Source of the DNA: Oceanibacterium hippocampi
GTDB lineage: Bacteria; Pseudomonadota; Alphaproteobacteria; Sneathiellales; Sneathiellaceae
Direction of reading: 5' to 3'
Length of the DNA stretch: 47,605 bases
Assembly (NCBI RefSeq): GCF_900172325.1
Contig: NZ_FWFR01000008.1
Location: forward strand, 1 to 47,605
Positions 1,921 through 47,108 of this stretch are shown here, in pieces. The position numbers and the translations under genes are program-made. A model generated the notes under the pieces. It was not told where the DNA came from and did not search any database. It was given only the letters and a program-made list of their open reading frames with translations. The number at the start of each line of letters is the position of its first letter. Positions within the stretch are counted from its first letter, which is position 1.

Positions 1921-3108
1921 TTATCCTCTTGATTTCAAACGTGTTTTTTGGGCGCTTCCGGCGGCCTTCCGGCGCCGTCTGGCGGGCTTTTGACTGTCTT
2001 TTGTCAATTGCCCGAGTCGCGCCGCCGCCTCGACCGCGTCGGCGACGTTGTCGGCGTCGACGTTGAGGTAGTGCATCGTCGTCGTGATCTCGCTGTGGCC
2101 GAGCGCCTTCTGCGCGGCCCGGAGATTGCCGGATCCGAACAGCACCCGGGTGCCGAAGGTCTTCCGCAGGTCGCGCGGCGTCACCTCCTCGATCCCGGCG
2201 GCCTCGCAGGCGGTGCGGAAGCTCCGCCGGATCGAGCGGATCGGCTTCCGCTTCTTCGAGTAGGTGAAGACCGGGCCGCTGCCGGCCGGGCCGAGGTTGG
2301 CGAGCAGGGCCAGCATCTCGCCGGCGATCGGCAGCCGGAGGACGCGGCCGCCCGGCTGCTTCGATTTCACCCGCACGGTGATCACCCGCGACCGCAGGTC
2401 GACGTCGCGCCAGTCGAGCGCGAGCAGGTTGCCGGTCCGGAGCCCGGTCAGGACGCCGGCCCGGATGATCGGCTCGAGGTGCCTGGCGCGCGCCGTGATC
2501 GCGGCGAGCAGGCGCTGCTGCTCGTCGGCGGTGAGCGTCCGGGTTCGCGGATCCGGCTCGCGCAGGCGGTGCCGGTTGAAATTCACCGGCGGCTCGGCAT
2601 CGGCCTTCACCCGCCAGACGTCGCGCGCCATGTGATGGACGGCGCGGAGATGGACGATCTCGGCATTGATCGAGCGCGGCGAGAGCACGCCGCCCCGGGG
2701 CGTCGGCTGGCCGCGCCGGCGCGCCCGCCAGTCGGCGAGCACCGCGTCGGAGATCTCGTGCAGGTGGATGCCGGCCGGCATGATCTCGAGGAACTTCCCG
2801 CACATCCGCCAGATGTCCCGGGCCGAGGCGAGCTGCGGCTCGCCGGTCGAGAGGCAGACATGGTCGAGCCAGTAGCGGCCGAAGGCGGCCTCCAGCGTCA
2901 TCGGCTGCGGCCCGGCATCGCGGCGCAGCCCGAGCGCGATGTCGCGGACCGCGACGCTCAGGATCGCGCGGGCGAGCGACCTGTCCGTTGTGCCCAGGCA
3001 ATGCCGAAGTCGATGACTTCGCCCGTCCGGGTCGCGCACCGTGACGTTCGCGTAGTAGCGGTCCGAGCCGGGGATCTTGACGACGATATCGCGCTGTGTT
3101 CGGGGCAT
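1921..3108 (-). CDS. int: Tyrosine recombinase phage integrase
   Basis: A 395-residue protein that should catalyse site-specific integration and excision at the tRNA-Pro core next to its own 3' end. The N-terminal part (about 1-60) is an AP2/arm-binding type region, the core-binding SAM-like domain covers about 70-170, and the catalytic domain about 190-350. Catalytic residues seen: Arg224 in LTGLRTGN, Lys248 or Lys250 in VKSKQ, Arg315 in PRDLRKTF, His338 in ALGHSE and the nucleophile Tyr347 in TTTMHYLNV. The residue that is usually His in the HxxR box is Arg312 here, a known natural variation. The C-terminus is strongly basic. It is last in a leftward operon, and its 5' end is overlapped out of frame by the HTH gene before it. 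Confidence 0.95.
   Translation of the reverse strand: MPRTQRDIVVKIPGSDRYYANVTVRDPDGRSHRLRHCLGTTDRSLARAILSVAVRDIALGLRRDAGPQPMTLEAAFGRYWLDHVCLSTGEPQLASARDIWRMCGKFLEIMPAGIHLHEISDAVLADWRARRRGQPTPRGGVLSPRSINAEIVHLRAVHHMARDVWRVKADAEPPVNFNRHRLREPDPRTRTLTADEQQRLLAAITARARHLEPIIRAGVLTGLRTGNLLALDWRDVDLRSRVITVRVKSKQPGGRVLRLPIAGEMLALLANLGPAGSGPVFTYSKKRKPIRSIRRSFRTACEAAGIEEVTPRDLRKTFGTRVLFGSGNLRAAQKALGHSEITTTMHYLNVDADNVADAVEAAARLGQLTKDSQKPARRRRKAAGSAQKTRLKSRG
1987..2007. other. Putative integrase arm-type site, copy 2
   Basis: This is the second copy of the repeat described at 1748-1768. It lies inside the 3' coding part of the integrase gene (encoding the LTKDSQK region), so the sequence is constrained both as code and, if the inference is right, as a protein-binding site. 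TTGAC and GTCAA form the arms of the dyad. Confidence 0.45.
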
Positions 3109-3328: not shown

Positions 3329-4480
3329 TCAGACCCGCATCGGCATGACGACGCCGATCATCTCGCCGTCGACATGCAGGCGGACCGGCGAGCCCGGGTT
3401 GATGACCTGCAGGCCGACCTCGCCGTCGCCGACCCGCGCGAGGAAGCTCTCGAGGTAGCGGACGTTGACGCCGAACTCGACCGGCTCGCCGCCCGCCCAG
3501 TCGATCGCCAGTTCGTCGCTTGCCTCGCCGCCCGCGCCCCTGGCCGAGATCCGGGCGACCGGCCGGTCGTCGCCGCCCTCGGCCGGGCTCGCGCCGATCT
3601 CGATCTTCACCGGGCTGCCCGTCTTCGACGCCTCGGCGAGCGGCCGCACCCGGCCGAGCGCGGCGCGGAGCGCCGGCGCGTCGAGGCGGGCGATCGGCTC
3701 GTCGCCGCTCGGCACGACGCGCTGGTAATCGGGGAAGGCGCCGTCGATCAGCTTCGACACGAGCCGCCAGTCGCCCTGTTCGACGGCGATCGCGGCGGCG
3801 CTCACGCGGATCTCGAGGGCGTTGCCGGTGGCGTCGATCAGGCCCTGCAGCGCCGCCATCGTCTGCCGCGCGACGATCACGCCCGGCATCTCGCCGGCGC
3901 CGTCCGGCAGGTCGGTCCGGGCGATCGCGAGCCGGTGCCCGTCGGTCGCGACGGCGAGCAGCCGGCGCTCGCCGTCCGTCTCGCCCACGTGCAGGTAGCT
4001 GCCGTTCAGGTAATAGCGGGTCTCCTCGGTCGAGACGGCGAAGGCGCTGTGGTTGATCAGCTGGAGGAAACGCGGCGCCTCGATCCGGAAGCTCGCCGCC
4101 TTCGCCTCGTCCTCCCGGCCCCAGGCCGGGAAATCCTCGCCCGGCAAGGTCGCCATCGCCCATTTCGCCCGGCCCGCGCCGAGCCGCGCCCGGCCGTCGT
4201 CGGCGCCCGCCTCGATGCGGATCTGGCTGCCGGCGGCGGCGGCGGCGGCGATCGCGGCCAGCTGGCCGGCCGGGAGGGCGCGCTGGCCGTTGACGGCGGT
4301 CTCCGCCTCGATCGTCACGGTCAGGCGGGCATCGAGGTCGGTGGCGGTGATCTCAAGCGCGCCGGTCGTGGCGGTGACCAGGACGTGGCTCAGGATCGGG
4401 ATCGTCGAATGGCGCTGGACGATCCGCACGGCCTGGCGCATGGCGCTGCTGAGCGCCGCCTGCTCGACGGTGACGATCAT
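3329..4480 (-). CDS. dnaN: DNA polymerase III sliding clamp (beta subunit) homologue 1
   Basis: A 383-residue protein, close to the usual DnaN length (about 370), with the three-fold clamp architecture. Family landmarks are the N-terminal MIVTVEQAAL, STIPILSHVLV (the TLPIL..VL element), DGHRLAIA in the middle domain, LIDGAFPDYQRVVP, and the C-terminal VVMPMRV, equivalent to the E. coli MPMRL that lines the partner-binding pocket. A ring of two such subunits would encircle DNA and tether polymerase. Its ATG overlaps the stop of the gene before it (ATGA), so it is translationally coupled, and it is co-directional with the HTH and int genes. No phage polymerase is visible in the window, so it presumably serves or competes with the host Pol III. 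A second, more divergent clamp lies at 11770. Confidence 0.93.
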   Translation of the reverse strand: MIVTVEQAALSSAMRQAVRIVQRHSTIPILSHVLVTATTGALEITATDLDARLTVTIEAETAVNGQRALPAGQLAAIAAAAAAGSQIRIEAGADDGRARLGAGRAKWAMATLPGEDFPAWGREDEAKAASFRIEAPRFLQLINHSAFAVSTEETRYYLNGSYLHVGETDGERRLLAVATDGHRLAIARTDLPDGAGEMPGVIVARQTMAALQGLIDATGNALEIRVSAAAIAVEQGDWRLVSKLIDGAFPDYQRVVPSGDEPIARLDAPALRAALGRVRPLAEASKTGSPVKIEIGASPAEGGDDRPVARISARGAGGEASDELAIDWAGGEPVEFGVNVRYLESFLARVGDGEVGLQVINPGSPVRLHVDGEMIGVVMPMRV

Positions 4481-7037: not shown

Positions 7038-7727
7038 TCATAGTCGGCGCGCCATCCAGGCAAGGCGGCCGATCACATTGACCTCGTCGGCAGTCCGCTC
7101 GTAAGCCGGGTGGTGACTATTGTCGGAGATGATCCGGATTGTTGCGGGGTCGGAGTGCGGAACGAACTCGATCCGCTTGACGACCACGCCGAAGCCGTCC
7201 CATAGCGCGAAGACGCCGGGCGGCGAGGGCGTGCGGTCGGCCAAGTTGATTAGCACGCGATCGCCGGAGCGGAGCGTCGGCTCCATGGAATCGCCCACGA
7301 CCTCGATGATCCGCGCAGCCGCCGGATCGACGCGCAGCTCACTTCGCAGATAGCCGTCGGGGATTTCCCAGCCGGCACGAACTGCGTCCTGCTCGATTTG
7401 ATTGCCATTGCCATCCGGCTGATAGGTGATCATGGCTTCGCCGCCGCCGCCTGCGCCGGCACGGACATCAATCTCGGCCAACCAGGCGCCCGGCGCATTG
7501 CCCGGCCTCCCGGGCGCGGTCGGCGCTTCTGAAAAGCCGAGCAGGTAATCCGGCGTCACGTTAAGCACCCGGCATATCTCTCGCAGCGTAGTGTAGTCCG
7601 GCTCACGCTGCGAGCGGACATAGTTACCGTAGCGTTCGGGCGAAATGCCTACGCGCCGAGCGACTTCTGCTGCAGATAATCCTTGGGCCTCGGCCGCCCG
7701 CCTCAGCTTCTTGCCTATTGCGATCAT
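7038..7727 (-). CDS. CI/LexA-like phage repressor with S24 peptidase domain
   Basis: A 229-residue master repressor candidate. Residues 1-65 are an XRE-type helix-turn-helix (LSAAEVARRVGISPERYGNY); residues 110-229 are an S24 self-cleaving domain. The catalytic Ser lies in VVGDSMEPTLRSGD and the Lys in GVVVKRIEF; the AWLAE linker near residue 90 may hold the cleavage site, although no canonical Ala-Gly pair is obvious. Such repressors hold the lysogenic state and are inactivated by RecA in the SOS response. I chose the ATG at 7727, which lies 3 bases from operator 7730-7742 and has no Shine-Dalgarno; like lambda cI it may be translated from a leaderless mRNA. Divergent from the early operon. 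Confidence 0.92.
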   Translation of the reverse strand: MIAIGKKLRRAAEAQGLSAAEVARRVGISPERYGNYVRSQREPDYTTLREICRVLNVTPDYLLGFSEAPTAPGRPGNAPGAWLAEIDVRAGAGGGGEAMITYQPDGNGNQIEQDAVRAGWEIPDGYLRSELRVDPAAARIIEVVGDSMEPTLRSGDRVLINLADRTPSPPGVFALWDGFGVVVKRIEFVPHSDPATIRIISDNSHHPAYERTADEVNVIGRLAWMARRL

Positions 7728-7729
7728 GC

Positions 7730-7742
7730 GAACAAAACGTTC
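7730..7742. promoter_or_regulatory. Operator O2 at the repressor start
   Basis: GAACAAAACGTTC is a perfect dyad (GAAC-N5-GTTC) that starts 3 bases upstream of the repressor ATG. With sites at 5450 and 7788 it defines a shared GAACAAAAYGT motif. Its position would allow autoregulation of the repressor. Confidence 0.55.
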
Positions 7743-7776
7743 AGCATCGCATGCCAATGCAATGCAAGTTTTGCTG

Positions 7777-7805
7777 TTGACGACAATGAACAAAATGTGC
7801 ATGTG
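7777..7805 (+). promoter_or_regulatory. Early rightward promoter overlapping operator O3
   Basis: TTGACG at 7777-7782 is followed after 17 bases by CATGTG at 7800-7805, a weak -10. Operator GAACAAAATGTGC at 7788-7800 lies between the two hexamers, so bound repressor would block RNA polymerase. Transcription would start only a few bases before the ATG at 7814, consistent with a leaderless or nearly leaderless first gene. The hexamer assignment is tentative. Confidence 0.45.
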
Positions 7806-7813
7806 TCGGTGAC

Positions 7814-8065
7814 ATGAGCGCATTCCCGATCATACGCAATCTCGGCGGCCGCGACGCGGTCCTGGAGAAGCTCCGCGCCTGCGATACCGCCGCCAGCGCC
7901 GTTCGCACAATCGACGCGATGCGGATGTGGGAGGCACCCGGCCGCCGCGGCATTCCCGGCTGGGCGATCCTCGCCCTGATGCGTATCGCCGAGACAGAGG
8001 GCATCGCCTACCGGGCCGCCGACTTCGATTTTGATCCGCCCGCCGTACGCGAGGAGGCGGCATGA
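7814..8065 (+). CDS. Cro-like small regulator, first gene of the early operon
   Basis: An 83-residue protein placed divergently from the repressor, with an operator directly upstream. Residues 8-60 (FPIIRNLGGRDAVLEKLRA, IDAMRMWEAPGRRGIPGWAI) have the layout of Cro/CI-family or YdaS-like HTH proteins that use a 'W..RG.IP..W' wing motif, where the Pro-Gly-Trp segment is typical. It probably represses or tunes the lytic/lysogenic switch. No strong ribosome site precedes the ATG. Its stop overlaps the next start (ATGA). Confidence 0.75.
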   Translation: MSAFPIIRNLGGRDAVLEKLRACDTAASAVRTIDAMRMWEAPGRRGIPGWAILALMRIAETEGIAYRAADFDFDPPAVREEAA

Positions 8066-10255: not shown

Positions 10256-10947
10256 GCCCGCGGCACGGCCCGGGCGCGGCCGGCGCGATCATGCTGCCGA
10301 CCGGCCACCTGGTCGACCCATTCGCCCTCGGCCCAGGCGACATCGCCCGCCTGCCGCTCGCCCAGATCCTGCCGGAGACGCTGGCGACCCTGCCGCGTTT
10401 CGGCGGCTGTCCGCCCGGCCCGGCCTACTCGGTCGCGCAGCATTGTTGCGAGCTCGCGCTTGCCTTCGCCAACCCGGCGCTCGGCCTGGCCGGGCCGGCC
10501 GACGAATGGCCGCGCGCCGGATACCGCGACGACTGCATGGCCTGGGCGCTGCTGCACGAGGTCTTCGAGGCGCTGACCGGGCTCGACGTGCCGTCGCCGA
10601 TCAAGCGCCGCTGGCCGCTCTACCGGGACACCGAGGCTTACGTCCTGCAGCATGTCTGCGGGCTCTACGGCATCGACCCGGCCGAGCCCGCCTGCCTCGA
10701 GGCCGATGCCCGGATCGTTCTTGATGAGGCCGCCTGGCTGTTCGGCCGCGACAGCGCGCCGCTGTTCGCCGCGCCGGGCACCCGGCCGCTCGGGATCCGC
10801 CCGGACCGGCGCTGGGATTTCGAGGAGGCGTCGCGGCGCTTCCGCGACCTCTGGCTCAGCCATGTCGCGCCGCGCCGGCGCGACGGGGCAGACCCGCGGG
10901 TCTCGGCCCTCGCCATGCGGCGGGCGGTCGGGACGGTGCCGGCATGA
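10252..10947 (+). CDS. HD-family phosphohydrolase (YfbR-like), HD changed to HE
   Basis: A 231-residue protein with the layout of phage HD hydrolases: MLPTGHLVDPFALGPGDIAR, YSVAQHCCELALAF with His64, ALLHEVFEALTG with His102-Glu103, and SPIKRRWPLY. In known relatives these remove phosphate from deoxynucleoside monophosphates, using metal held by His...HD...D. Here the diagnostic His-Asp pair reads His-Glu, a conservative but unusual change. The GTG at 10252 overlaps the previous stop (GTGA); an ATG 13 codons later is an alternative. Likely role: shaping the nucleotide pool during replication. Confidence 0.8.
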   Translation: MSPRHGPGAAGAIMLPTGHLVDPFALGPGDIARLPLAQILPETLATLPRFGGCPPGPAYSVAQHCCELALAFANPALGLAGPADEWPRAGYRDDCMAWALLHEVFEALTGLDVPSPIKRRWPLYRDTEAYVLQHVCGLYGIDPAEPACLEADARIVLDEAAWLFGRDSAPLFAAPGTRPLGIRPDRRWDFEEASRRFRDLWLSHVAPRRRDGADPRVSALAMRRAVGTVPA

Positions 10948-11717
10948 CGGTCGACCCGGAACGCCTTGCCGACTGGCTGCATCGCCTGGTCCCAGCCGAC
11001 GATCTCGGCCTCACCGGCGCCCGCTTCGACTGGCTCGGCCGGGCGCTCGACCTCGACCGGGCGGCCGCCGCCGCCGCCTGGTTCCGCCTCGGCCTCGGCG
11101 CCGCGCGGATCGAGGCGGGCGAGGCCGGCGCGCCCGGCTGGTCGATCCATCCCGAGGCCGATCGGCGGGAGGGCCGGCTGGTCATCACCCTGCCGCTCGC
11201 GATCGAGGGCCGGGTGCTCGACCTGGTCGCGCTGGACCCGGCCGACGGGGTGCTCTGGTGGCCGCTGCTCGGCGGCCATGCGCTCGGCGACCCGGCGCTG
11301 GCGCTCGCCCGCCAGCGCGGCGCGCCGCTCCGGGTCTTCTCGGGCCCGCTGGCCTGGCTCCGCGCGGCGGCCGAGCCGCTGCCGCCCGGGCATGCCCCGG
11401 TGCCGGGCGGCAGCGGCTATTGCCCGCTCGGGCTCGACGACGCGGCGCTGGAGGCGGCGCTTGCCGGCCTGCCGGCGCTCCATTGCGACGACGCCGCCTT
11501 CGGGCAGTCGCTCGCCGACCGGATGAAGAATGCCCGCCGGGCGCGCCGCGCGGCCGAGCCGCGCCTGCCGGAGGTCCGGGTGCGGGCGCGTCGCTCGCCC
11601 GCCATCGTGGCGAGCGCGCCAGAAAACGCGCCCGTGAACGGGGCGAGCGCGGCAAAAAGCTCGCCCGTGAACGGGGCGAGCGCGACGGACGTTGAGGCGG
11701 GGAGGGTGGCCGCGTGA
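10944..11717 (+). CDS. Unknown 257-residue early protein with C-terminal 11-residue repeats
   Basis: I do not recognise the globular part (about 1-190; motif DLVALDPADGVLWWPLLGG, then GAPLRVFSGPLAWLRAA). The layout loosely recalls Toprim or primase-associated proteins of alphaproteobacterial phages, but no catalytic residues can be assigned. The C-terminal 65 residues are basic and end in an 11-residue repeat (PVNGASA twice), encoded by a 33-bp period repeat with GCGAGCGCG at 11611, 11644 and 11677. Start and stop overlap the neighbours by 4 nt. Confidence 0.6.
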   Translation: MTVDPERLADWLHRLVPADDLGLTGARFDWLGRALDLDRAAAAAAWFRLGLGAARIEAGEAGAPGWSIHPEADRREGRLVITLPLAIEGRVLDLVALDPADGVLWWPLLGGHALGDPALALARQRGAPLRVFSGPLAWLRAAAEPLPPGHAPVPGGSGYCPLGLDDAALEAALAGLPALHCDDAAFGQSLADRMKNARRARRAAEPRLPEVRVRARRSPAIVASAPENAPVNGASAAKSSPVNGASATDVEAGRVAA

Positions 11718-11773
11718 GCTTGGTCTATGACGTCAGTCTGTTCGATAGCCTGTTCCAGGAGATTTATCCGTGA
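11714..11773 (+). CDS. 19-residue leader ORF coupled to clamp 2
   Basis: The GTG at 11714 overlaps the preceding stop (GTGA), and the TGA at 11771-11773 overlaps the GTG start of clamp 2. The peptide ends SLFQEIYP. The gene before clamp 1 ends VLFEETYP, so the last eight codons, the AGGAG ribosome site they contain and the bases across the start codon (TATCC then RTGATCGT) are shared. I read it as a conserved coupling element, probably the trimmed 3' end of a copy of the gene at 4477-4902. Translation of the peptide itself is unproven. Confidence 0.5.
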   Translation: MSLVYDVSLFDSLFQEIYP

Positions 11774-12960
11774 TCGTGACCGTGGAACGTTCGACCCTTG
11801 CCGCGGCGGCGAAGGCCGCGCGAAACCATGCCGCAACGGGCAAGGATGCCGGCGTGCTCGGCATGGTGCTGATCAGCGCCGAGCCCGACGGCGCCATGTC
11901 ACTGGCCGCGACCGACATGACGCGCCGCTTCGAGGTCCGGTTCGAGGCGGAGGTGACGCGCGCCGGATCGGCCCTGTTGCCGGCCGTCGAGCTCGCGGCG
12001 CTCGCCGATCGCGCGACCGAGGGCAGCCAGGTGCGGATAGAGATCGACTATCCGTCGCCGGCGACGGCGCGGGCCGGCCGGAGCCGATGGCGCATGCCGG
12101 TCGACCAGGCCGAGAATTTTCCCGCCTGGTCCGGCGCCTTGACTCCGCCGTTCGAGATGCCCGCCGGTGCGCTCCGCCGATTGTTCTCCCGAACGCTGTT
12201 CGCGGCGGAGCGCACCGGCGGCTCGAGCTACTTCCTGATGGGCGTCCATCTGAGGCTCACCGGCCCCGCGGATGCGTTGCGGCTGGTCGCCGTCGCGACC
12301 AACGGCCACCAGCTCGCCATAGCCGATTGCCTGGCGCCGGCCGGCAGCGGCGGGCTGCCCGACGGCGGCGTGACCGTGCCCGACGACGCCGTCAAGGACC
12401 TGTTGGGCATGCTGCCGAAGGAGAGCTCTGATCCGGCGGCGGTGGCGATCGGTGAGCACGATCTGACGGTTCGCTTCGGCGACTGGACGTACTACACGCG
12501 GCTGATTGACGGCAGTTTCCCCGACTACGAGCGGGTTATCCCGCCGGAGACGGGACCGCTCTGCACCATGCCGGCGCCGGCCCTCCGCGCCGCGCTCGGG
12601 CGGATCGAGCCAATGGCCGACATGCATAGCGAGAAGGGCCCGTCGACAACCTACCGGGTCAGGAGAGTGGAGATAGACGTCGGCCCCTCGGACGAGGCGG
12701 CAGACGACGGTCGCCCGGCAATGCGGCTGACCGCAGCCGGGCCCGACGGACGGCAAGCCGAGGACGAGATCGCCGTCGAATGGAGCGGCGTAGATGCCTG
12801 GAGAACCGCCTTCAACATCCCCTACCTGGTCGACTTCGCCGCGCAGGCCGAGCCTGGCGCGATCGCCTTCCGGGTGCACGGCCTGGGCGCCGGCAACGGC
12901 CCTGTCCTGGTTTACGCGGACGGCGACCTGCTCGGCGTGATCATGCCGCTACGGCGATGA
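11770..12960 (+). CDS. dnaN: DNA polymerase III sliding clamp homologue 2 (divergent)
   Basis: A 396-residue clamp paralogue. Conserved features: MIVTVERSTL, ATDMTRRFEV, FPAWSG, ATNGHQLAIA, LIDGSFPDYERVIP and the C-terminal GVIMPLRR. The N-terminal RxxTIPIL element of ordinary DnaN, still present in clamp 1, is lost here (GKDAGVLGMVLI). The two clamps share the same plan but are clearly different proteins, far more diverged than a recent duplication. It starts with GTG, coupled to the leader ORF, and its stop overlaps the mini-GcrA gene. It would be made with the lytic replication genes, whereas clamp 1 is made with integrase. Homo- or heterodimeric rings are both possible. Confidence 0.9.
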   Translation: MIVTVERSTLAAAAKAARNHAATGKDAGVLGMVLISAEPDGAMSLAATDMTRRFEVRFEAEVTRAGSALLPAVELAALADRATEGSQVRIEIDYPSPATARAGRSRWRMPVDQAENFPAWSGALTPPFEMPAGALRRLFSRTLFAAERTGGSSYFLMGVHLRLTGPADALRLVAVATNGHQLAIADCLAPAGSGGLPDGGVTVPDDAVKDLLGMLPKESSDPAAVAIGEHDLTVRFGDWTYYTRLIDGSFPDYERVIPPETGPLCTMPAPALRAALGRIEPMADMHSEKGPSTTYRVRRVEIDVGPSDEAADDGRPAMRLTAAGPDGRQAEDEIAVEWSGVDAWRTAFNIPYLVDFAAQAEPGAIAFRVHGLGAGNGPVLVYADGDLLGVIMPLRR

Positions 12961-16156: not shown

Positions 16157-16242
16157 GCGACCTTTTCAAGCGGCGCGGCGCCGGACGAGAGAGGCCGGCA
16201 AGTTTGGTTCAGGGGAGGGAAACAGGGCGTGACCGGCGATAG
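16153..16242 (+). CDS. Possible 29-residue coupling ORF before the helicase gene
   Basis: The ATG overlaps the MazG-like stop (ATGA) and the stop overlaps the helicase start region. The peptide is very basic and not recognised. It may exist only to carry ribosomes into the next gene; the AGGGGAGGG at about 16211-16219 inside it is the helicase ribosome site. Confidence 0.35.
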   Translation: MSDLFKRRGAGRERPASLVQGRETGRDRR

Positions 16243-18049
16243 TGATGATTTCGTACCACTCGACGAGGCGAAGCGGCAGGGCGACGACGGCGGCGCGGCC
16301 GGCCGGAGCGGCTTTCGCGGCCCGGTCGAATGGGCCGAGGCGCCGGTGACGCCGCTCGGCCACTGGGCCGGGACCTATTACTTCCTCTCGCGCGCGGCGG
16401 AGATCCGCACGCTGCATTTCAAGGATCTGCGGGCGTCCGGGATCCTGTCGCTGTTCGGCGGCCGGGTCGACTGGCTGTCGGAGGTCTGGCCGATGTTCGA
16501 CCAGCGCGGCCGGCCGATACCCGGCGCCTTCTCGGCGAACGACGCGGCGGCCGGGCTGATCCGCGCCTGCGAGGACGAGGGCTTCTTCGACCCGGCGGCA
16601 GACCTGCGCGGCCCGGGCATCTGGCGGGCCGATGACCTGGAGGGCTACGAGGGCGGCCTGATCCTCCATTGCGGCGACCGCATCGGCCTGGTCACGGCCG
16701 AGGGCCGGGTGATCTGGGGCAAGGCCGGGCGGCGCCTCGGCGCCCATGTCTACCCGAAGCGCCGCCGCCAGCCGCGCCCGGCGGATGTCCCGGCGAGCGC
16801 CCGCGACGTCGCCGAGCTCGAGGGCTTCCTCGGCTCCTGGAACTGGGGCCGGCCGTCCGACCCGAAGGTGATCCTGGGTTATCTGGCCTGCGCGATGATG
16901 GTCGGCGCGACCCGCTGGCGGCCGCATGTCTGGGTCACCGGCGACGCCGGCACCGGCAAGTCGGAGCTCGAGAAGTTCGTCTGGGACTTGCTCGGCGACG
17001 CGGTCTGGCGGGCCTCCTGGCCGACCGCCGCGGCGATCTTCCAGGGCCTCGACAACGCGGCCCGGCCGGTCGCCCTCGACGAGATCGAATCCGAGCCGGG
17101 CTCGCGCCGGGTGCAGGAGCTGGTCAAAACGGCGCGCCTCGCCTCGACCGACGAGCAGTCGGGCATCGCCCGCGGCTCGATCGGCGGCACCGCCTCGATC
17201 TGGCGGATCCGCGCCTGCTTCTGGTTCTCCTCGATCATCCCGGCGCCGCTCTCGCCGCAGGACCGCTCGCGCATCGTCGTCCTCGACATGGGCCAGCTCG
17301 AGAACGCGGGCGAGGGCGCCGGCGCCTTCCTCGAGGCGCGCGCCTCGTTCGCCGGGCTCGGTCCGCGGCTCCGCGCCCGGCTGATCGCCGGCTGGGGCCG
17401 CTACGTGCAGAACGAGGCGGCGAACGGCCTGGTGCTCGCCGAGGACGGCCTCGCGGCCCGCGTGCAGGCGCAGATGGGGGCGATCCTCGCCGGCTACTGG
17501 ACGCTCGCCCATGACCGGCCGATCACCTTCGAGGAGGCCCGCGCGCTCGCCGAGGCCCTCGAGCCCGAGCGCTTCTCGGTCGATGCCGAGGATTCGAACG
17601 CCGCGCTCTGCCTGCAGCGGCTGATGCAGTCGGAGGTCGACGCCCAGGGCGACAACGACGGGCTCTGGCGGGTCTCGATCGGCCACCTGCTGGCACGCAA
17701 CGGCGGCAACCCGAAGGGCCGCCACAGCCGCGTGCTGCGCGCCCACGGCCTCGCCGTCGCCGAGCGGCCGGATCCGGCCGACCCGGCCGGCCCGGACCGG
17801 CGCTGGCTGCAGGTCAAGCTCTCGCACGACCTGCTCGACCGCCAGGTCTATCGCGAGACCGAGTGGGAGCGGGGCGGCTGGGCCGTCGCGCTCGCCCGCC
17901 TGCCCGGCGCGATCAAGCCCCGGGTCACGGTCAATTTCGGCGACTACGTGAGCGGCAAGGCGGTCTGGCTGCCCTGGGAGACGCTCGGCGAGCGCTTCGC
18001 CGACGGCGACCCGGGCGAGGTCACGGGCGGCGCGGACGGATTGCCGTAA
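16229..18049 (+). CDS. Phage replicative helicase / P-loop replication protein
   Basis: A 606-residue protein. Walker A is GDAGTGKS at 238-245, Walker B is PVALDEIES, and FWFSSIIPAPLSPQDRSRIV resembles motif C and the arginine-finger region of superfamily 3/AAA+ phage helicases. The N-terminal 200 residues are an accessory domain without visible primase motifs; the C-terminal 120 residues (ARNGGNPKGRHSRVLRAHG) could be a DNA-binding domain. I expect it to open the origin and load the host replisome; the repeat cluster directly after its stop codon is the likely target. GTG start with a good ribosome site. Confidence 0.8.
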   Translation: MTGDSDDFVPLDEAKRQGDDGGAAGRSGFRGPVEWAEAPVTPLGHWAGTYYFLSRAAEIRTLHFKDLRASGILSLFGGRVDWLSEVWPMFDQRGRPIPGAFSANDAAAGLIRACEDEGFFDPAADLRGPGIWRADDLEGYEGGLILHCGDRIGLVTAEGRVIWGKAGRRLGAHVYPKRRRQPRPADVPASARDVAELEGFLGSWNWGRPSDPKVILGYLACAMMVGATRWRPHVWVTGDAGTGKSELEKFVWDLLGDAVWRASWPTAAAIFQGLDNAARPVALDEIESEPGSRRVQELVKTARLASTDEQSGIARGSIGGTASIWRIRACFWFSSIIPAPLSPQDRSRIVVLDMGQLENAGEGAGAFLEARASFAGLGPRLRARLIAGWGRYVQNEAANGLVLAEDGLAARVQAQMGAILAGYWTLAHDRPITFEEARALAEALEPERFSVDAEDSNAALCLQRLMQSEVDAQGDNDGLWRVSIGHLLARNGGNPKGRHSRVLRAHGLAVAERPDPADPAGPDRRWLQVKLSHDLLDRQVYRETEWERGGWAVALARLPGAIKPRVTVNFGDYVSGKAVWLPWETLGERFADGDPGEVTGGADGLP

Positions 18050-18070
18050 TGATTTCAACAAGGTGCCCAC

Positions 18071-18300
18071 GGTCACCTGATGGTCACTATCAGGTCACCA
18101 TCGCAAGCCCCTGATTTGACGGGGAAAGCGGGCGCATGGTGACCAGGTGACCAGCCAGGACAAGGGATCTCCACGCGCGCGCGCGCGATGCGGATCGGTG
18201 GTCACCTGGTCACCTTGGTCACCTTGAAGAAAGAGATAAAGGGATTCAGTCGGTTAGACGGTGACCGGGGCGGTGACCAGGGGGCATCGGCCCGGTCACC
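18071..18300. repeat. GGTCACC repeat cluster, putative replication origin
   Basis: Ten exact copies of GGTCACC or its complement GGTGACC lie within 230 bp, at 18071, 18093, 18138, 18146, 18200, 18208, 18217, 18260, 18272 and 18294, with one near copy at 18082. They form close pairs and a triplet spaced 8-12 bp, plus inverted groups (GGTGACC pair followed by GGTCACC triplet). A (CG)n run at about 18172-18188 and a short AT-rich stretch (GAAGAAAGAGATAAA) lie inside. No gene covers the region. Iterated sites directly downstream of a helicase gene are typical of phage origins; binding by that protein is inferred. Confidence 0.6.
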
Positions 18301-18332
18301 GGGGCAACAGCGGCAACGAGGCGGAGTGGCGC

Positions 18333-18974
18333 ATGGTGAAGACGGCGGTGGATATCGAGGACCTGGTGATCTGGACCTATCAGGCCCAGCGGGCGGACGT
18401 GATCGAGGGCTGGAGCGACAGCCGGGAGGGGGACTGGCTCGCCGGCGGCAATCGAACGATCGAGGCGGTGCTGATCGAGCGCGGGGCGATCGGCTGCGAG
18501 ATCGACACGAGCCCGGTGCCGGCTTCCTCGCGCCTGCATCCGGATGCCGAGGCGATCCACGAGGCGGTGACCGGGCTCGGCAGCCGGATCGAGATCGGCC
18601 TGCTGATCCAGCATGGCCGGGCGGGCACCCGGCCAGACTGGCTGCCCGCCGCGCGCACCCGGATCGTGCCGGCTGAGATGCGCTGGAGCCGTCGCCATCG
18701 GGAATACCGGCCGCGGATCGAGTACGACCGGAACCGGAACCCGGTCTGCTGCCCGGTGCGGATCGTCGACCATCCGCAGAAGATCGAGGCGGCCCGGACC
18801 GTCTACGCGATCTGGCGCGAGGCGCTGGCCGACCTGGCCGAGGTCTTCCGGCTGCACCCGGCCCGGCTTCGCGACCACGCGGTTGCCGGTCCGCGCGCCC
18901 CGGCCCGGCCATGGGAGGCGGCGAGCGCGCCGGCCGGTCGGGATGCCATGCCGCGTCGCGCATATGGTGGTTGA
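18333..18974 (+). CDS. Unknown 213-residue protein in the position of a late-gene antiterminator
   Basis: No family recognised. Contains DIEDLVIWTYQAQRADVIEG, a basic central part (MRWSRRHREYRPRIEYDRNR) with paired Cys (NPVCCPVRI), and a helical C-terminus. I chose the ATG at 18333 with GGAG upstream, because the part of the frame before it lies in the repeat cluster. The gene ends inside the TTGACA box of the putative late promoter, just as lambda Q lies directly upstream of pR'. A Q-like role is therefore suggested by position only. Confidence 0.55.
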   Translation: MVKTAVDIEDLVIWTYQAQRADVIEGWSDSREGDWLAGGNRTIEAVLIERGAIGCEIDTSPVPASSRLHPDAEAIHEAVTGLGSRIEIGLLIQHGRAGTRPDWLPAARTRIVPAEMRWSRRHREYRPRIEYDRNRNPVCCPVRIVDHPQKIEAARTVYAIWREALADLAEVFRLHPARLRDHAVAGPRAPARPWEAASAPAGRDAMPRRAYGG

Positions 18975-19975: not shown

Positions 19976-20539
19976 ATGACCACGACCTATCTCAACCGGG
20001 CGGAAGCCGCGAAGGCGCTGGAGATTTCCGAGCCGACGCTCGCCGACTGGATCGAGCAGGGCGCGCCGGTCGCCGGCCGCGGCGGCCGTGGCCGCGCCTA
20101 CCGCCTCGACGTCGCGGCGATCCGCGCCTGGCGGGACGGCATCGTCCAGGCCGAGGAAGCCGAGCGCGCCGCCCGCGAGGCGGAGGTCGCGCGGCACCAG
20201 CAGCGCCTCGATCTCGGCGAGGCCGAGGCCGGCGGCGAGGCGATGTCGGCGAAGGCCCGGCGCGAGTTCTACGAGGCCGAGCTCAAGCGGATGCACGCCG
20301 CGCGGCAGCGCGAGGAGCTGGTCCCGGTCGACGAGGTCCGGGCCGAGATGACGCGGATCTATCGCGACCTCGCGACCCGGCTCCGCACGCTGCCCGACCT
20401 GCTGGTCGATCGAGGCGTGATCGCGCCGGCCGCCGCCGCCGTCGTCGCCGACCAGGTCTCGGCCTGGCAGGAGGACATGGCGCGCGCCCACATGCGTGCC
20501 GAGATCACCGCCGGCGAGGCCGGAGCGGCCGGCGGGTGA
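19976..20539 (+). CDS. Terminase small subunit (Nu1-like)
   Basis: A 187-residue protein. The N-terminal winged-helix (LNRAEAAKALEISEPTLADW, then GRAYRLDVAAIRAWRDG) is the Nu1-type DNA-recognition domain that picks the phage cos site. A charged helical middle and a C-terminal part (RIYRDLATRLRTLPDLL) for contact with the large subunit follow. GAGGGA precedes the ATG. Its stop overlaps the GTG of the large subunit. Confidence 0.85.
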   Translation: MTTTYLNRAEAAKALEISEPTLADWIEQGAPVAGRGGRGRAYRLDVAAIRAWRDGIVQAEEAERAAREAEVARHQQRLDLGEAEAGGEAMSAKARREFYEAELKRMHAARQREELVPVDEVRAEMTRIYRDLATRLRTLPDLLVDRGVIAPAAAAVVADQVSAWQEDMARAHMRAEITAGEAGAAGG

Positions 20540-22596
20540 ACGCCTTTACCGCCGCGGCGCCGTGGCCGATCGAGCCGCTGCCGCCGCACCGCAGCGCGCG
20601 CTCGATCCGGGCTGAGGCGGCCGAGGCGCTGCTGCCGCCGAAACGCTACACGGTCGCCGAGGCGGCCGAGCGCTACCGGCGGCTCAACAACGCGCCGACC
20701 TATGTCGGTCCCTGGCGCAACGAGAAGACGCCCTACATGGTCGGGCCGATGGAGGCGATCACCGCGCGCGACCGCGAGGCGGTGATCTTCGTCGGCCCGG
20801 CGCAGTCGGGCAAGACCGACGCGCTGATCGTCAACGCGATCGCCCACGCTGTGACCTGCGACCCGATGGACATGATGGTCGTGCAGACCAGCCAGGCCGA
20901 GGCGCGGGACTTCTCGCGGCGCCGGGTCGACCGGCTGAACCGGGATTCGGAGGCGGTCGGCAGCCGGTCGATCGCGCGCCGCGACAACGTGCATGACAAG
21001 GAATATGCCGGCGGCATGATCCTCTCGCTCGGCTGGCCGGCGATCTCGCAGCTCTCGGGCAAGCCGATCCCGCGCATGCTGCTGACCGACTACGACCGCA
21101 TGCCGGCGGACGTCGACGGCGAAGGCGAGCCCTTCGACCTGGCGGCCAAGCGGACGACGACCTTCGGCTCGCTCGGGCTCACGCTCGCCGAGAGCTCGCC
21201 CGGCCGCCCGATCATCGAGCCGGGCTGGGAATGCCCGCCGGGCAGCCACCTGGCGCCGCCGGTCGCCGGCGGTATCCTGGCGCTCTACAACCGCGGCGAC
21301 CGCCAGCGCTGGCACTGGCCGTGCCCGCATTGCGGCGAGACGTTCGAGGGCTCGTTCAAGCTGCTCGACTGGCCGAAGGGCGCGCCGCCCGAGATGGCCG
21401 CGGCGGCAACCCGGATGGTCTGCCCGCGCAACGGCTGCATCATCGAGCCGGGCGAACGCGACGGCATGAACGCCCGCGGCCGCTGGGTCGCGGAGGATCC
21501 CGGGGCGGCGAGCCGGGTAGCGTCCTACTGGCTCAAGGGCACCGCGGCGGCCTGGGTGACCTGGCCGCAGCTGGTCTACCGCTACGTCACGGCGCTCGAA
21601 GCCTTCGAGCGGAGCGGCGACGAGAACGCGCTCCGGACGACGATCAACGTCGACCAGGGCGAGCCCTACCTGCCGGCGGCGCTGGCCGCCGAGTCGGCGC
21701 TCGACCCGGCGGTGCTGGCGGCCCGGGCGGAGGATTTCCCGCTCGGCCGGGTGCCGGCCGGGGCGGGCTTCCTGACCGCGTCGATCGACGTCCAGGGCAA
21801 CCGCTTCGAGGCCCAGGTGGTTGCCTGGGGCGCCGCGGGCGAGCGCTGGGTGATCGCCCACGAGGAGATCTTCGAGGCGCCCGGCGGCGGCCGCATGGTG
21901 CAGCCGGCCTCGTTCGACGAGGACTGGGACCTGCTGTTCGCCGCCGTGCTCGAGCGCGCCTGGCCGCTCGCCGACGATCCGGCGCGGGGCATGATGCCGC
22001 GCTTCACGGTCTGCGACATGCAGGGCGAGCCGGGCGTCACGACCCGGGCGCTCGACTTCGCCCGGCGGGTCAAGGCGCGCGGCCTCGGCCCGCGCTTCCG
22101 GCTGCTGCGCGGGGCGTCGAGCGCCAACGCGCCGCGCCTCGCCGAGACCTACCCGGACAGCCGGCGGAAGGACCGGCATGCCGGCGCCCGCGGCGAGATC
22201 CCGGTCCTGCAGCTGCACCCCTGGCTGCTCAAGGACGAGGTCTTCACGGCGCTCGGGCGGACGGTGCCGGGCACCGAGTTCGTGCATCTTCCGGCGGCGC
22301 TCCGCGATCCCGAGCCGCCGCATCACTGGTTCGACCAGCTCGCCGCCGAGGTCCGCAAGCCGGACGGCTGGCACCGCCGGCGGAACCGCAACGAGGCATG
22401 GGACCTGCTGGTCTACAACCGCGCCGCCTGGCTGTTCCTCAAGGCGGACAAGATGGACTGGGAGACCCGCCCGGCCTTCGCCCGCCGCGAGGCCGACAAC
22501 CCGTTCCTCGTCGCCCTCGGCCCGAACGGCGAGCAGCCGGACCGGACCGCCTCGGCGGCTGAGAAGCAACCTTTCTTCATGCGCCTGGCGCACTGA
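20536..22596 (+). CDS. Terminase large subunit, GpA family
   Basis: A 686-residue packaging ATPase-nuclease of the lambda GpA family. Features: Walker A GPAQSGKT at 87-94, Walker-B-like MLLTDYDRMP, a zinc-binding pair CPHCGETF with a later second Cys set (VCPRNGC), and the C-terminal nuclease region with FLTASIDVQGNRFEAQV and the late NRNEAWDLLVYN motif. It cuts concatemeric DNA and drives it into proheads. GpA-type terminases usually cut at cos ends. Confidence 0.95.
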   Translation: MNAFTAAAPWPIEPLPPHRSARSIRAEAAEALLPPKRYTVAEAAERYRRLNNAPTYVGPWRNEKTPYMVGPMEAITARDREAVIFVGPAQSGKTDALIVNAIAHAVTCDPMDMMVVQTSQAEARDFSRRRVDRLNRDSEAVGSRSIARRDNVHDKEYAGGMILSLGWPAISQLSGKPIPRMLLTDYDRMPADVDGEGEPFDLAAKRTTTFGSLGLTLAESSPGRPIIEPGWECPPGSHLAPPVAGGILALYNRGDRQRWHWPCPHCGETFEGSFKLLDWPKGAPPEMAAAATRMVCPRNGCIIEPGERDGMNARGRWVAEDPGAASRVASYWLKGTAAAWVTWPQLVYRYVTALEAFERSGDENALRTTINVDQGEPYLPAALAAESALDPAVLAARAEDFPLGRVPAGAGFLTASIDVQGNRFEAQVVAWGAAGERWVIAHEEIFEAPGGGRMVQPASFDEDWDLLFAAVLERAWPLADDPARGMMPRFTVCDMQGEPGVTTRALDFARRVKARGLGPRFRLLRGASSANAPRLAETYPDSRRKDRHAGARGEIPVLQLHPWLLKDEVFTALGRTVPGTEFVHLPAALRDPEPPHHWFDQLAAEVRKPDGWHRRRNRNEAWDLLVYNRAAWLFLKADKMDWETRPAFARREADNPFLVALGPNGEQPDRTASAAEKQPFFMRLAH

Positions 22597-45700: not shown

Positions 45701-47108
45701 CTCGGGGCTCACCTTCCGGCACGGCTGGCTGACGCCGGGCGGCGAGACCCTCGCGACGCTCTCCGGCACGCTCGCCGCCGGGGCCGGCGAGGGCGACATC
45801 CGGGCCGGCGGCCGGGCGCTGCAGGTCGACCTGGCGAACGGCACCTGGCACGCCGACATCGCGGCCAACGTGCCGGAAGCCTCGGCGCTGCTCGACGCGA
45901 TCTCGGGCCCGGGCGACTGGTCGACGGTCCGCGCGGCGCTCGACTACACGGCGATCACCCGGGATTCCGACACCCGGATCACCCTCACGCTGCCGCCGGT
46001 CCCGGCCTACTCGATCGCGGCGGCGGATCCCTGGACGCTCGACATCCCGGTCGCCGCGCTGGCGACCTGGATGTCCGACCCGACGCCGGTCTCGATCGTC
46101 ACCGTGGCGCCGCTCGCGACCTCCGCCACGGCCTCCGGCCCGGTCTGGGACGGGATCAGCCAGGCCGAGGCCCAGGCCGGTGGCCAGACGCTCACCGCCG
46201 ATCTCGTCAACGCCACTTGGCATGCCGGCATCGGCGCGGTCTCGGTCGAGACGACGGCGCTGCTCGACGCGCTGACCGGCAACCGCGACTTCGCGACGAT
46301 CCGCGGGCTGATGGACGCGAGCCACGTCGAGCGGGTCTCCGACACCCGGGTCACCATCACGCTCCCGCCGGCGCCCGCCTACGACCCGGGCGGCAGCGAC
46401 GAGACGATCATGCTCGACCTCTCGCCGGCGATGTTCGCGACCTACGAGAGCGACCCGTCGCCGCTCGCCGTCGGCACCGTCATCGCCGCCGTCGATCCGG
46501 GGCTGAAGTTCCGCGACGAGTTCGACGGCCCGACCGGCGAGATCCTCGAGGCGGGCGGCCATCTGCCCGACGTCGGCACCGGCTGGATCGCCTGGAACCG
46601 GCACGCGGACGATGGGCGCAACATGCAGACCAACGGGGCCGGGCAGGCGAGCAAGAGCAACTCGGGCATCGTCACCGCCTATGCCATGGTGCCCGACACG
46701 CCGCTCGCCGCCGACCAGTATGTCGAGGGCGACAGCGGCGGCGCGACCGACGATCCGCAGACCGGCCTGATGCTCCGCGCCGTCGATCTCGACAACAAGT
46801 ACCACCTGCACACGCGGGTGAACGGGATCCTGCGGATCTACCGGACGGTCGGCGGCGTGCAGCCGCCCGAGATCGCCGGCACCGGCTTCGACGCCTGGGC
46901 GCCGGGCGACACGCTCCGCTTCGAGGCCGAGACGATCGGAGCCGCGGTGCAGCTCCGGGTCTATGTCAACGGCGACCTCGTGCTCTCGCACGACGACACC
47001 GACGCCGACCGGATCACCGCCGCCGGCAGCGCCGGCATGGTTGCCCGCGGCGCCCTCAACACCGGCGACCATTACTGGTCGCGTGTCCTCGCCGGCGACC
47101 TGGCCTGA
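42771..47108 (+). CDS. Large tail fibre/spike with repeated domains and C-terminal lectin domain
   Basis: A 1445-residue protein, the largest in the window. Three related domains of about 100-110 residues lie at about 126-230, 998-1113 and 1122-1236; each contains a DIQAGG/EAQAGG-type start, TWHA.I, a GDWSTVRAALD-like segment and LPPVPAY. Between the first and second copy, residues about 240-995 resemble large carbohydrate-active proteins (TAYLWHSVAFPKGAVPAGYR and many Trp/Tyr/Asp), possibly a polysaccharide lyase or hydrolase. Residues 1243-1445 look like a concanavalin/LamG-type lectin (FRDEFDGPTGE, VQLRVYVNGDLVLSHDD). Likely the host-recognition and capsule-degrading spike. GTG start overlapping the lipase stop. 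A broken copy of the last 23 residues occurs at 180-248. Confidence 0.75.
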   Translation: MSFPFMPGRPGSLGLATLPDITPDPFAFAAIVDAARNAVVTSAPVEVTGTDAPAPVTISGEPSARFRINGGGWVTSATMPAGGATLELQMTASGDWSTEFACLLNIAGVTAGWLVTTAAEPFSLMAALTAATAADIQAGGETLLVTVAAETWAATLGEDNAVTTAWLDSFAGNGDWATIRASLDFSHVTRLSDSQARIDLPPVPAYEIAAPEIVTADFPATVFAGATDPAVITVGTISAVAATIATEARHVWRQNLVGEVTTAYLWHSVAFPKGAVPAGYRLQAAADATPFAASFLAPSTWDDGSLRFAMAAYKLPWPLAFGEVLDVTFAAVPGEEPVWAGDDPATIAGALPSLELTFSGGASGTSSFAGAVANWSRIWGQGSEAIAIQARQPIAGSKLHCLWWLLYFADGKAIPVVQVLNGTDEQDQSVVQLTVNATFKEDGATQAGYSYTGLELAHHAGPIVNLAADSTYYQVGGGGDPVKLTPEPSHRMWALAGLAAPYEVDQATSPNMAAIPALPGDVYAGADAGVYHPTDVWHCEQDVGLGGYRPDIGMLPGWCVYHLMRPTAAWWQYVRRRSLNWLHMPRYYVSTRGGGSKFGLINTTPWAGLHADMPDRYPDWDRLDCITGVSDNGTGQHGWSMYGAYGKAHLDYTHDAAAIEYLAMVEASPWFVYAVEMVVGRQQCDGGIEGDGADQYFGEIYRSFTTGPASAPVTYHGKPKFREVRQWAWMTRSAGYARFMTPDDEINAAYVARHHAEIWEVTNSVITIDAEDAYEGRSIPAAAKTRQWLFWPNNPHSIMPLWQVAHFAKVTALDHRRGWAETTATFDYVCRGFIAALMGNHQYAAIGYRTRPTPSGAKNTGWPATGYFTSFSDAGCVHWNADDWNAAVAWPVDHPDAGAGGYQPSTHTGGESFVQPYFNPERDFSYFYMLMSAVFLTIWAGGGNADTAAALAYWLANDPQTRLGSGGDTKTFENSATSGLTFRHGWLTPGGETLATLSGTLAAGAGEGDIRAGGRALQVDLANGTWHADIAANVPEASALLDAISGPGDWSTVRAALDYTAITRDSDTRITLTLPPVPAYSIAAADPWTLDIPVAALATWMSDPTPVSIVTVAPLATSATASGPVWDGISQAEAQAGGQTLTADLVNATWHAGIGAVSVETTALLDALTGNRDFATIRGLMDASHVERVSDTRVTITLPPAPAYDPGGSDETIMLDLSPAMFATYESDPSPLAVGTVIAAVDPGLKFRDEFDGPTGEILEAGGHLPDVGTGWIAWNRHADDGRNMQTNGAGQASKSNSGIVTAYAMVPDTPLAADQYVEGDSGGATDDPQTGLMLRAVDLDNKYHLHTRVNGILRIYRTVGGVQPPEIAGTGFDAWAPGDTLRFEAETIGAAVQLRVYVNGDLVLSHDDTDADRITAAGSAGMVARGALNTGDHYWSRVLAGDLA

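Follow-up and report, generated by a model that had tools for sequence, protein, structure and literature searches.

A candidate replication origin with satellite-type iteron half-sites behind a Cch/MCM-like helicase gene in a temperate contractile-tailed phage

The closest known counterparts of the locus reported here are the replication origins of the SaPI and PICI satellites. In the portions of PMC7581432 that were available, the C-terminal domain of SaPI Rep is described as recognising an iteron origin located directly downstream of its own gene. The available portions of PMC6092414 present the PICI origin as sets of iterons flanking an AT-rich region, and report that the rep-ori segment of EcCICFT073 drove plasmid maintenance. 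The Cch helicase is likewise described, in the literature available in part, as related to SaPIbov1 Rep. The window considered here, i.e., the whole stretch of DNA analysed, is a contig of 47,605 nucleotides from Oceanibacterium hippocampi (NZ_FWFR01000008.1) that is identical with IMGVR_UViG_2831931051_000002. Directly behind a helicase gene it carries a cluster of GGTCACC repeats which is read here, with a probability of roughly 0.88, as the site at which a temperate tailed phage starts replication, built from half-sites of the PICI/P4 type; we infer both its binding by the helicase and its activity.

The repeat cluster and its arrangement

The proposed origin fills a gap of 283 bp (18050-18332) between the helicase stop at 18049 and the next likely start at 18333, and this region looks non-coding, as the initial annotation had claimed. 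The gene directly behind it (18333-18974) belongs to PHROG 9306, to which no function is assigned. The ten exact GGTCACC copies that had been counted in both orientations lie exactly at 18071-18300, six on the plus and four on the minus strand, and an eleventh copy with one mismatch (GGTCACT, plus strand) is found at 18082. The view that this density is far beyond chance was upheld, with no more than three copies per 230 bp appearing in 200 dinucleotide-preserving shuffles of the window or in 2000 shuffles of 18050-18332. In a contig-wide scan for any over-represented 6-mer (300-bp windows, step 25) the cluster scores 17.1 and the next best place 8.0.

GGTCACC is over-represented throughout the window (40 copies against 5.3 expected by shuffling), and most of the other copies are likely of coding origin. 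A search for the same 7-mer at similar density elsewhere found only four copies in 230 bp at the densest other place, from 42908; this group is probably coding, since it falls inside long ORFs and its spacings are multiples of three. The same explanation was rejected for the cluster itself because of its mixed orientation, its intergenic position and spacings that are not all multiples of three. A search of Rfam at the gathering score returned no match, as did the origin sequence itself when used as a query against phage records. GC skew, which had been put forward as a check, gives no support for an origin: there is no switch at the cluster, and the cumulative curve keeps within -0.15 to 0.08 over about the first 25 kb before a steady fall.

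The pairs, triplet and inverted groups that had been described are present, and the left group also becomes a triplet once GGTCACT is counted. Together they form two inverted half-sites, 18071-18152 and 18200-18300, with a (CG)n run between them. The left outer group (18071-18099, plus strand) consists of GGTCACC at 18071 and 18093 and GGTCACT at 18082, spaced 11 and 11 bp, and a step of 45 bp, start to start, leads to the left inner array (18138-18152, minus strand) with iterons at 18138 and 18146, 8 bp apart. The centre between the inverted inner arrays (18153-18199) is crossed by a start-to-start step of 54 bp to the right inner array (18200-18223, plus strand), whose three iterons at 18200, 18208 and 18217 are spaced 8 and 9 bp. 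After a further 43 bp comes the right outer pair (18260-18278, minus strand; iterons at 18260 and 18272, spacing 12), which is opposite to the inner array, and 22 bp past this pair a terminal iteron (18294-18300, plus strand) is oriented as the inner array. The left half-site is without this 22-bp terminal copy. The inner arrays belong to a 19-nt inverted repeat that is 95% complementary.

Two further elements of the initial annotation take on a defined place in this plan. The AT-rich stretch is found at 18224-18259 (61% AT, i.e., 39% GC compared with 72% for the contig; rank p 0.006 within its own locus), where it sits off-centre between the right inner and right outer groups and may serve as the opening site. 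The exact centre of the origin is GC-rich (70% GC). The (CG)n run is present as an alternating pyrimidine-purine tract of length 16 (18172-18187; rank p 0.002 against other windows of its own locus), the run of 16.0 at the centre comparing with 4.6 for the remaining spacers of this origin. Beyond what had been noted, it is central between the inverted inner arrays, and relatives likewise have alternating tracts; it thus looks like a recurring part of the origin plan and not incidental.

The carrier phage and its helicase

The carrier is a temperate contractile-tailed phage of full size and not a satellite. The contig encodes an integrase (1924-3108, minus strand), a CI-like repressor (7041-7823, minus strand), DNA methyltransferases and sliding-clamp relatives, together with terminase (19976-22596), portal, head protease, major head protein and tail sheath, and because these structural and packaging genes are present the element itself is not a PICI. 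The two sliding-clamp genes (DnaN-like, PHROG 947) are different and lie on opposite strands, at 3332-4480 (minus) and 11770-12960 (plus). The contig ends (1-185 and 47141-47605) are in acyltransferase-like sequence resembling other contigs (C6, 92%; C17, 91%), and two copies of a 68-bp repeat, at 180-247 and 47034-47101, are 87% identical.

Packaging sites can contain repeats, and the small-subunit gene of the terminase starts 1.7 kb downstream of the cluster, so the repeats might be read as a cos or pac site for this enzyme. This is the least probable of the alternatives weighed here and a very remote one: in phage phi1422 about 7 kb separate the corresponding cluster from the terminase genes, in Acjo_20 some 39 kb as its record is written, and the P4 ori and a PICI origin are built from the same half-sites.

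The helicase gene in front of the cluster (16229-18049, plus strand, GTG start) encodes a Cch/MCM-like protein of 606 aa, the proposed initiator. It matches PHROG 21086 (unknown function, E 9.6e-74) and PHROG 35358 (DNA primase, E 3.8e-41) and has no Pfam match at E 0.1 and no NCBIfam match at E 0.01. At the latter threshold this includes TIGR01613, the P4-family primase-helicase profile, which 4 of 52 members of the helicase family match weakly (best E 3.6e-4). PF06048 (DUF927), the family of Cch and SaPIbov1 Rep, does not match the window protein and is matched by two of the 52 members (best E 2.6e-4). Helicase matches are found in 23 phage records, the best 20 of the 23 at 25-31% identity, and the hosts among these 20 listed records include Bordetella, Pseudomonas, Bdellovibrio, Acinetobacter and Synechococcus. 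Nine of ten aligned phage relatives have an N-terminal extension that the window helicase is without. In profile this extension is zinc-binding and primase-like, and in profile searches against solved structures the N-termini of the relatives match mainly zinc-domain primases, along with short P-loop matches. A split primase encoded at 10944-11714 of the window found no support (hhalign probability 0.6%).

An AlphaFold2 model of the helicase (mean pLDDT 88.4, 52 sequences) was compared with known structures. VIA-align places SCCmec Cch first (5dgk, Z 15.7, rmsd 6.5 over 439 residues) and the SaPI5 primase-helicase second (7om0, Z 15.4, rmsd 6.6 over 326 residues), with MCM helicases at Z about 15, tied within 1 with both. 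In Foldseek the top ranks by E-value go to the primase-helicases of African swine fever and mpox, with Cch at ranks 4 and 5; Cch has the highest TM-score to the query (0.43) among the Foldseek matches listed. By predicted fold only, the protein would be a self-loading helicase like Cch and SaPI Rep, tied with MCM. Its C-terminal domain (residues 441-606; 17549-18046, plus strand) is winged-helix-like and proposed to bind the iterons. Predicted alone it reaches a mean pLDDT of 85.3, and its fold matches are weak, the best being a relaxosome protein bound to oriT DNA (5vfx, Z 4.8), followed by HSF and viral IRF DNA-binding domains at Z about 3. Foldseek found nothing for the domain at E 0.001. 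SaPI Rep and Cch are absent among the matches listed for the domain alone, which excludes nothing.

Recurrence, geometry and word turnover among relatives

The arrangement was sought behind related helicase genes in 157 loci, of which 80 are in viral contigs (the window phage included), 67 in genome contigs and 10 in phage records. These loci form 95 clusters; 93 representatives were testable, and two were dropped because of too little downstream sequence. The same 6-mer scorer was applied to positive controls. In P4, the annotated crr directly behind the alpha gene (15.4) and ori (10.2) are the two best windows, and in E. coli CFT073 the gap behind the presumed pri-rep gene of EcCICFT073 holds 11 copies of GGTAGA and scores 15.8. 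This gene was identified as a primase gene followed by capsid and head-decoration genes, which matches the description in the available part of PMC6092414.

A score of at least 8 within 400 bp behind the helicase stop is reached in 30 of the 93 representatives (window phage included) and in 17 of 3421 other windows of the same loci, which, like the backgrounds used below for tracts and AT content, are mostly coding, so that part of these contrasts may be one of coding versus non-coding DNA. In L102, L152, L171 and L241 the helicase stop was taken 15-129 bases beyond the real one. The other 63 of the 93 have no strong cluster directly behind the gene. In some of them, e.g., L192, L193, L121, L220, L115, L108 and L107, a cluster lies 0.4-2.5 kb further downstream or upstream; among the remainder, some have none in the stretch of sequence examined. 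The clusters of L121, L220, L115 and L108, which begin 1.6-2.3 kb behind the helicase, recall the two separate sites of P4. The L154 cluster comprises 27 related helicase loci, and its representative is without an iteron cluster in the examined stretch (score 4.3). Among the ten loci from phage records, L103, L105 and L109 reach the threshold immediately behind the gene, the cluster of L107 is upstream of the helicase and that of L108 about 1.7 kb downstream, L104 is weak (6.3), and no cluster was found in L102, L106, L110 and L111.

When complete genomes are scored, no other window exceeds the helicase-adjacent cluster in the window phage (17.1, next best 8.0), phi1422 (15.8, 6.4), S-H1 (9.6, 6.5) and Acjo_20 (14.0, 6.4), the cluster of Acjo_20 being upstream of the helicase gene. 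The detailed half-site geometry is seen in phi1422 (L105) and Acjo_20 (L107). A three-copy pattern of GGTCACC occurs in 82 viral loci, two of which match the profile of the window's helicase family within the stretch examined (L070, a copy of the window, and L012, weakly); the word is thus also found beside other genes or as part of unrelated arrays. Many of these pattern matches in viral contigs are likely coding, with a 9-bp period. Tandem GGTGACC arrays in 8-bp steps or multiples thereof, with up to 24 copies in 300 bp, are present in L014, L021, L009 and L075, and the helicase family of the window is absent from the stretches examined there.

The geometry was followed in 46 inspected loci, 36 of which have an assignable outward orientation and were used for the geometry, tract and AT analyses (L125, L179, L203, L155, L109, L128, L258, L104, L163 and L108 were dropped). 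Several of the 36 are related to each other. Outward was defined by the central arrays, which makes the divergent order there a matter of construction; this does not hold for the spacings. Across the 36, inner-array spacings are 8 or 9 bp in 69 of 73 cases, and outer-group spacings 11 or 12 bp in 30 of 42. From the inner array it is 29-66 bp to the outer group of opposite orientation in 54 of 61 cases (range 27-78). Beyond the outer group the next distance varies more among relatives (19-26 bp in 19 of 44), and the centre measures 45-119 bp with a median of 87.

Alternating runs at the centre are significantly long in 23 of the 36 loci (rank p 0.05 or less within the own locus); in 18 the centre is significantly AT-rich, and 33 have one feature or the other. 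The alternating run is longer at the centre than in other spacers of the same origin in 32 of 36 loci (one was not scorable). In loci with at least 62% GC this is so in 17 of 17 (mean 16.0 compared with 4.9), and AT content is higher at the centre in only 2 of the 17. The longest unbroken alternating tracts between inverted arrays behind the helicase stop measure 80 bp (L171) and 64 bp (L186). In 26 of 36 loci, and in 15 of the 17 GC-rich ones, one or more of the inner-outer spacers is significantly AT-rich (p 0.05 or less in the own locus, with up to two spacers tried in each). As the AT-rich part keeps the place known from the P4 and PICI origins, the alternating tract appears to be an additional central element.

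The repeat word itself varies (GGTAAC, GGTTAC, GTAACA, CCTAAC, AGAACC, GTGACA, GTAAGA, GTTAGA and others), some words being common to several lineages. Word similarity correlates with helicase identity both for the core (r 0.24) and for the C-terminal domain (r 0.25; 35 loci, L171 left out for a truncated reading), and the C-terminal domain contributes a small extra share (partial r 0.13, p 0.04; reverse partial r 0.10, p 0.06). The word is shared in all nine listed pairs with a C-terminal identity of at least 48%. This pattern of sequence covariation suggests that the C-terminal domain may recognise the iterons.

The correlation is modest and partly due to shared descent, which speaks for a rival reading in which the origin is real but served by host DnaA or another phage protein, with the helicase a mere neighbour. 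This alternative is nonetheless improbable, because in fold and gene order the helicase resembles initiators that bind an origin downstream of their own gene and because the words differ between phages and are shared in the nine pairs just mentioned. Slightly less probable still is a cluster of operators, in which a phage repressor or a regulator of the downstream genes would bind the nearly palindromic word (GGTSACC); a CI-like repressor is indeed encoded in the phage. However, eleven sites in two inverted half-sites exceed the needs of an operator, such clusters accompany the helicase gene in very different phages, several words of the relatives (GTTAGG, GTTCCC, AGAACC) are non-palindromic, and the P4 and PICI origins have the same half-sites.

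Turnover of the word is also seen with the VapE-like helicases related to L039, where GGTCACC shifts to GTTCGG at 81% protein identity, to GTTCGT at 76% and to GGTCAG at 65%. Iteron positions are largely kept in these loci, and the centre is alternating in five of five tested. In the closest pair the last 69 residues are 68% identical compared with 81-87% for the rest of the protein. Arrays were scored in six of eight VapE-like loci (5.3-12.2); the scorer found none in L270 and missed L269, where two inverted GACGCA pairs are visible by eye. Among the further VapE-type loci L012, L259 and L260, only L012 has a clear array.

Proposed mechanism and comparison with known origins

The claim that the cluster is a replication origin beside a helicase gene is supported by its position, the order of its half-sites, the predicted helicase fold and its recurrence among relatives. 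In the mechanism proposed here, the helicase encoded at 16229-18049 would bind the GGTCACC iterons through its C-terminal domain, and one helicase ring would assemble on each of the two inverted half-sites. Each half-site offers two or three inner iterons at 8-9 bp and, 43-45 bp away, an opposite outer group at 11-12 bp; in the right half-site only, another 22 bp lead to the last copy. The DNA would open in the AT-rich spacer with the aid of the (CG)n tract, which untwists easily and separates the inner arrays, and replication would proceed in both directions from the opened origin.

A wider proposal, for which the odds are about even, is that a large helicase-origin family exists in tailed phages. 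Its members would share the half-sites of satellites, turn over the iteron word (GGTCACC, GTTAGG, GGTTAC, AGAACC, GTAAGA and others) with spacings largely kept and so form orthogonal replicons, and join their half-sites, above all in GC-rich phages, by a Z-prone tract of up to 80 bp that would help to open or untwist the origin beside AT-rich spacers. No report of full-size tailed phages with such an architecture was found in the open-licence literature. The presence of satellite half-sites in full-size phages (the window phage and at least phi1422 and Acjo_20) bears on the direction of replicon transfer, i.e., whether satellites took the replicon from phages or the reverse. The pattern also offers a simple way to find candidate origins in the phage family of this helicase from sequence alone, a set of natural pairs of helicase and iteron in which recognition and incompatibility could be studied, and a testable idea on the role of alternating pyrimidine-purine DNA at an origin.

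The PICI and SaPI systems (SaPIbov1, EcCICFT073) likewise have the origin directly 3′ of the helicase gene, the first iteron being at 18071 here, and likewise have short iterons in inverted sets, with AT-rich DNA separating two of the groups. They also share the Cch/SaPI Rep helicase fold, here by prediction, and the order of the half-site with steps of 8-12, 22 and 43-46 bp. With arrowheads giving the orientation of the copies and numbers the steps in bp, the half-site of EcCICFT073 reads from the centre outward > 11 > 22 < 46 > 9 >, that of the P4 ori reads > 10 > 11 > 22 < 43 > 10 >, and the right half of the window origin reads > 22 < 12 < 43 > 9 > 8 > on the minus strand (word GGTGACC). 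The 22-bp step at the terminal iteron of the window is thus also found in both other origins. The half-sites of EcCICFT073 face the other way, with the 11-bp groups toward the centre and the 9-bp pairs outside, whereas the window phage has the reverse. A PICI is moreover a satellite and the carrier here a full-size temperate phage with integrase, repressor and structural genes, and the window origin differs from PICI and SaPI in its alternating (CG)n centre and in a helicase that has no Pfam or NCBIfam match at E 0.01.

In P4, short GGTGA-type iterons and a crr directly behind the alpha gene resemble the arrangement described here, and the P4 ori has the half-site order and the AT-rich inner-outer spacer in common with the window (83% AT in the P4 ori; in the PICI, 78% on one side and 42% on the other). 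P4 differs in having two separated sites and a fused primase-helicase (the fusion as given in the available part of PMC7145576). SCCmec provides the first-ranked VIA-align match to the window helicase, Cch, and according to the available part of PMC7581432 its Cch2 binds repeats behind its own operon; the putative SCC origin differs in that only three iterons are reported in the text available and in that the carrier is a chromosomal cassette and no phage. In viral contigs such as L039, the gene for a VapE-like helicase (PF05272) is directly followed by GGTCACC iterons with a CG-rich alternating centre, but these helicases belong to another family by Pfam, and the iteron scores are mostly lower in the six loci scored. 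By location, half-site order, AT-rich spacer and fold the cluster is of a known kind, and it differs from the known origins in its full-size phage carrier, the facing of its half-sites and its alternating centre.
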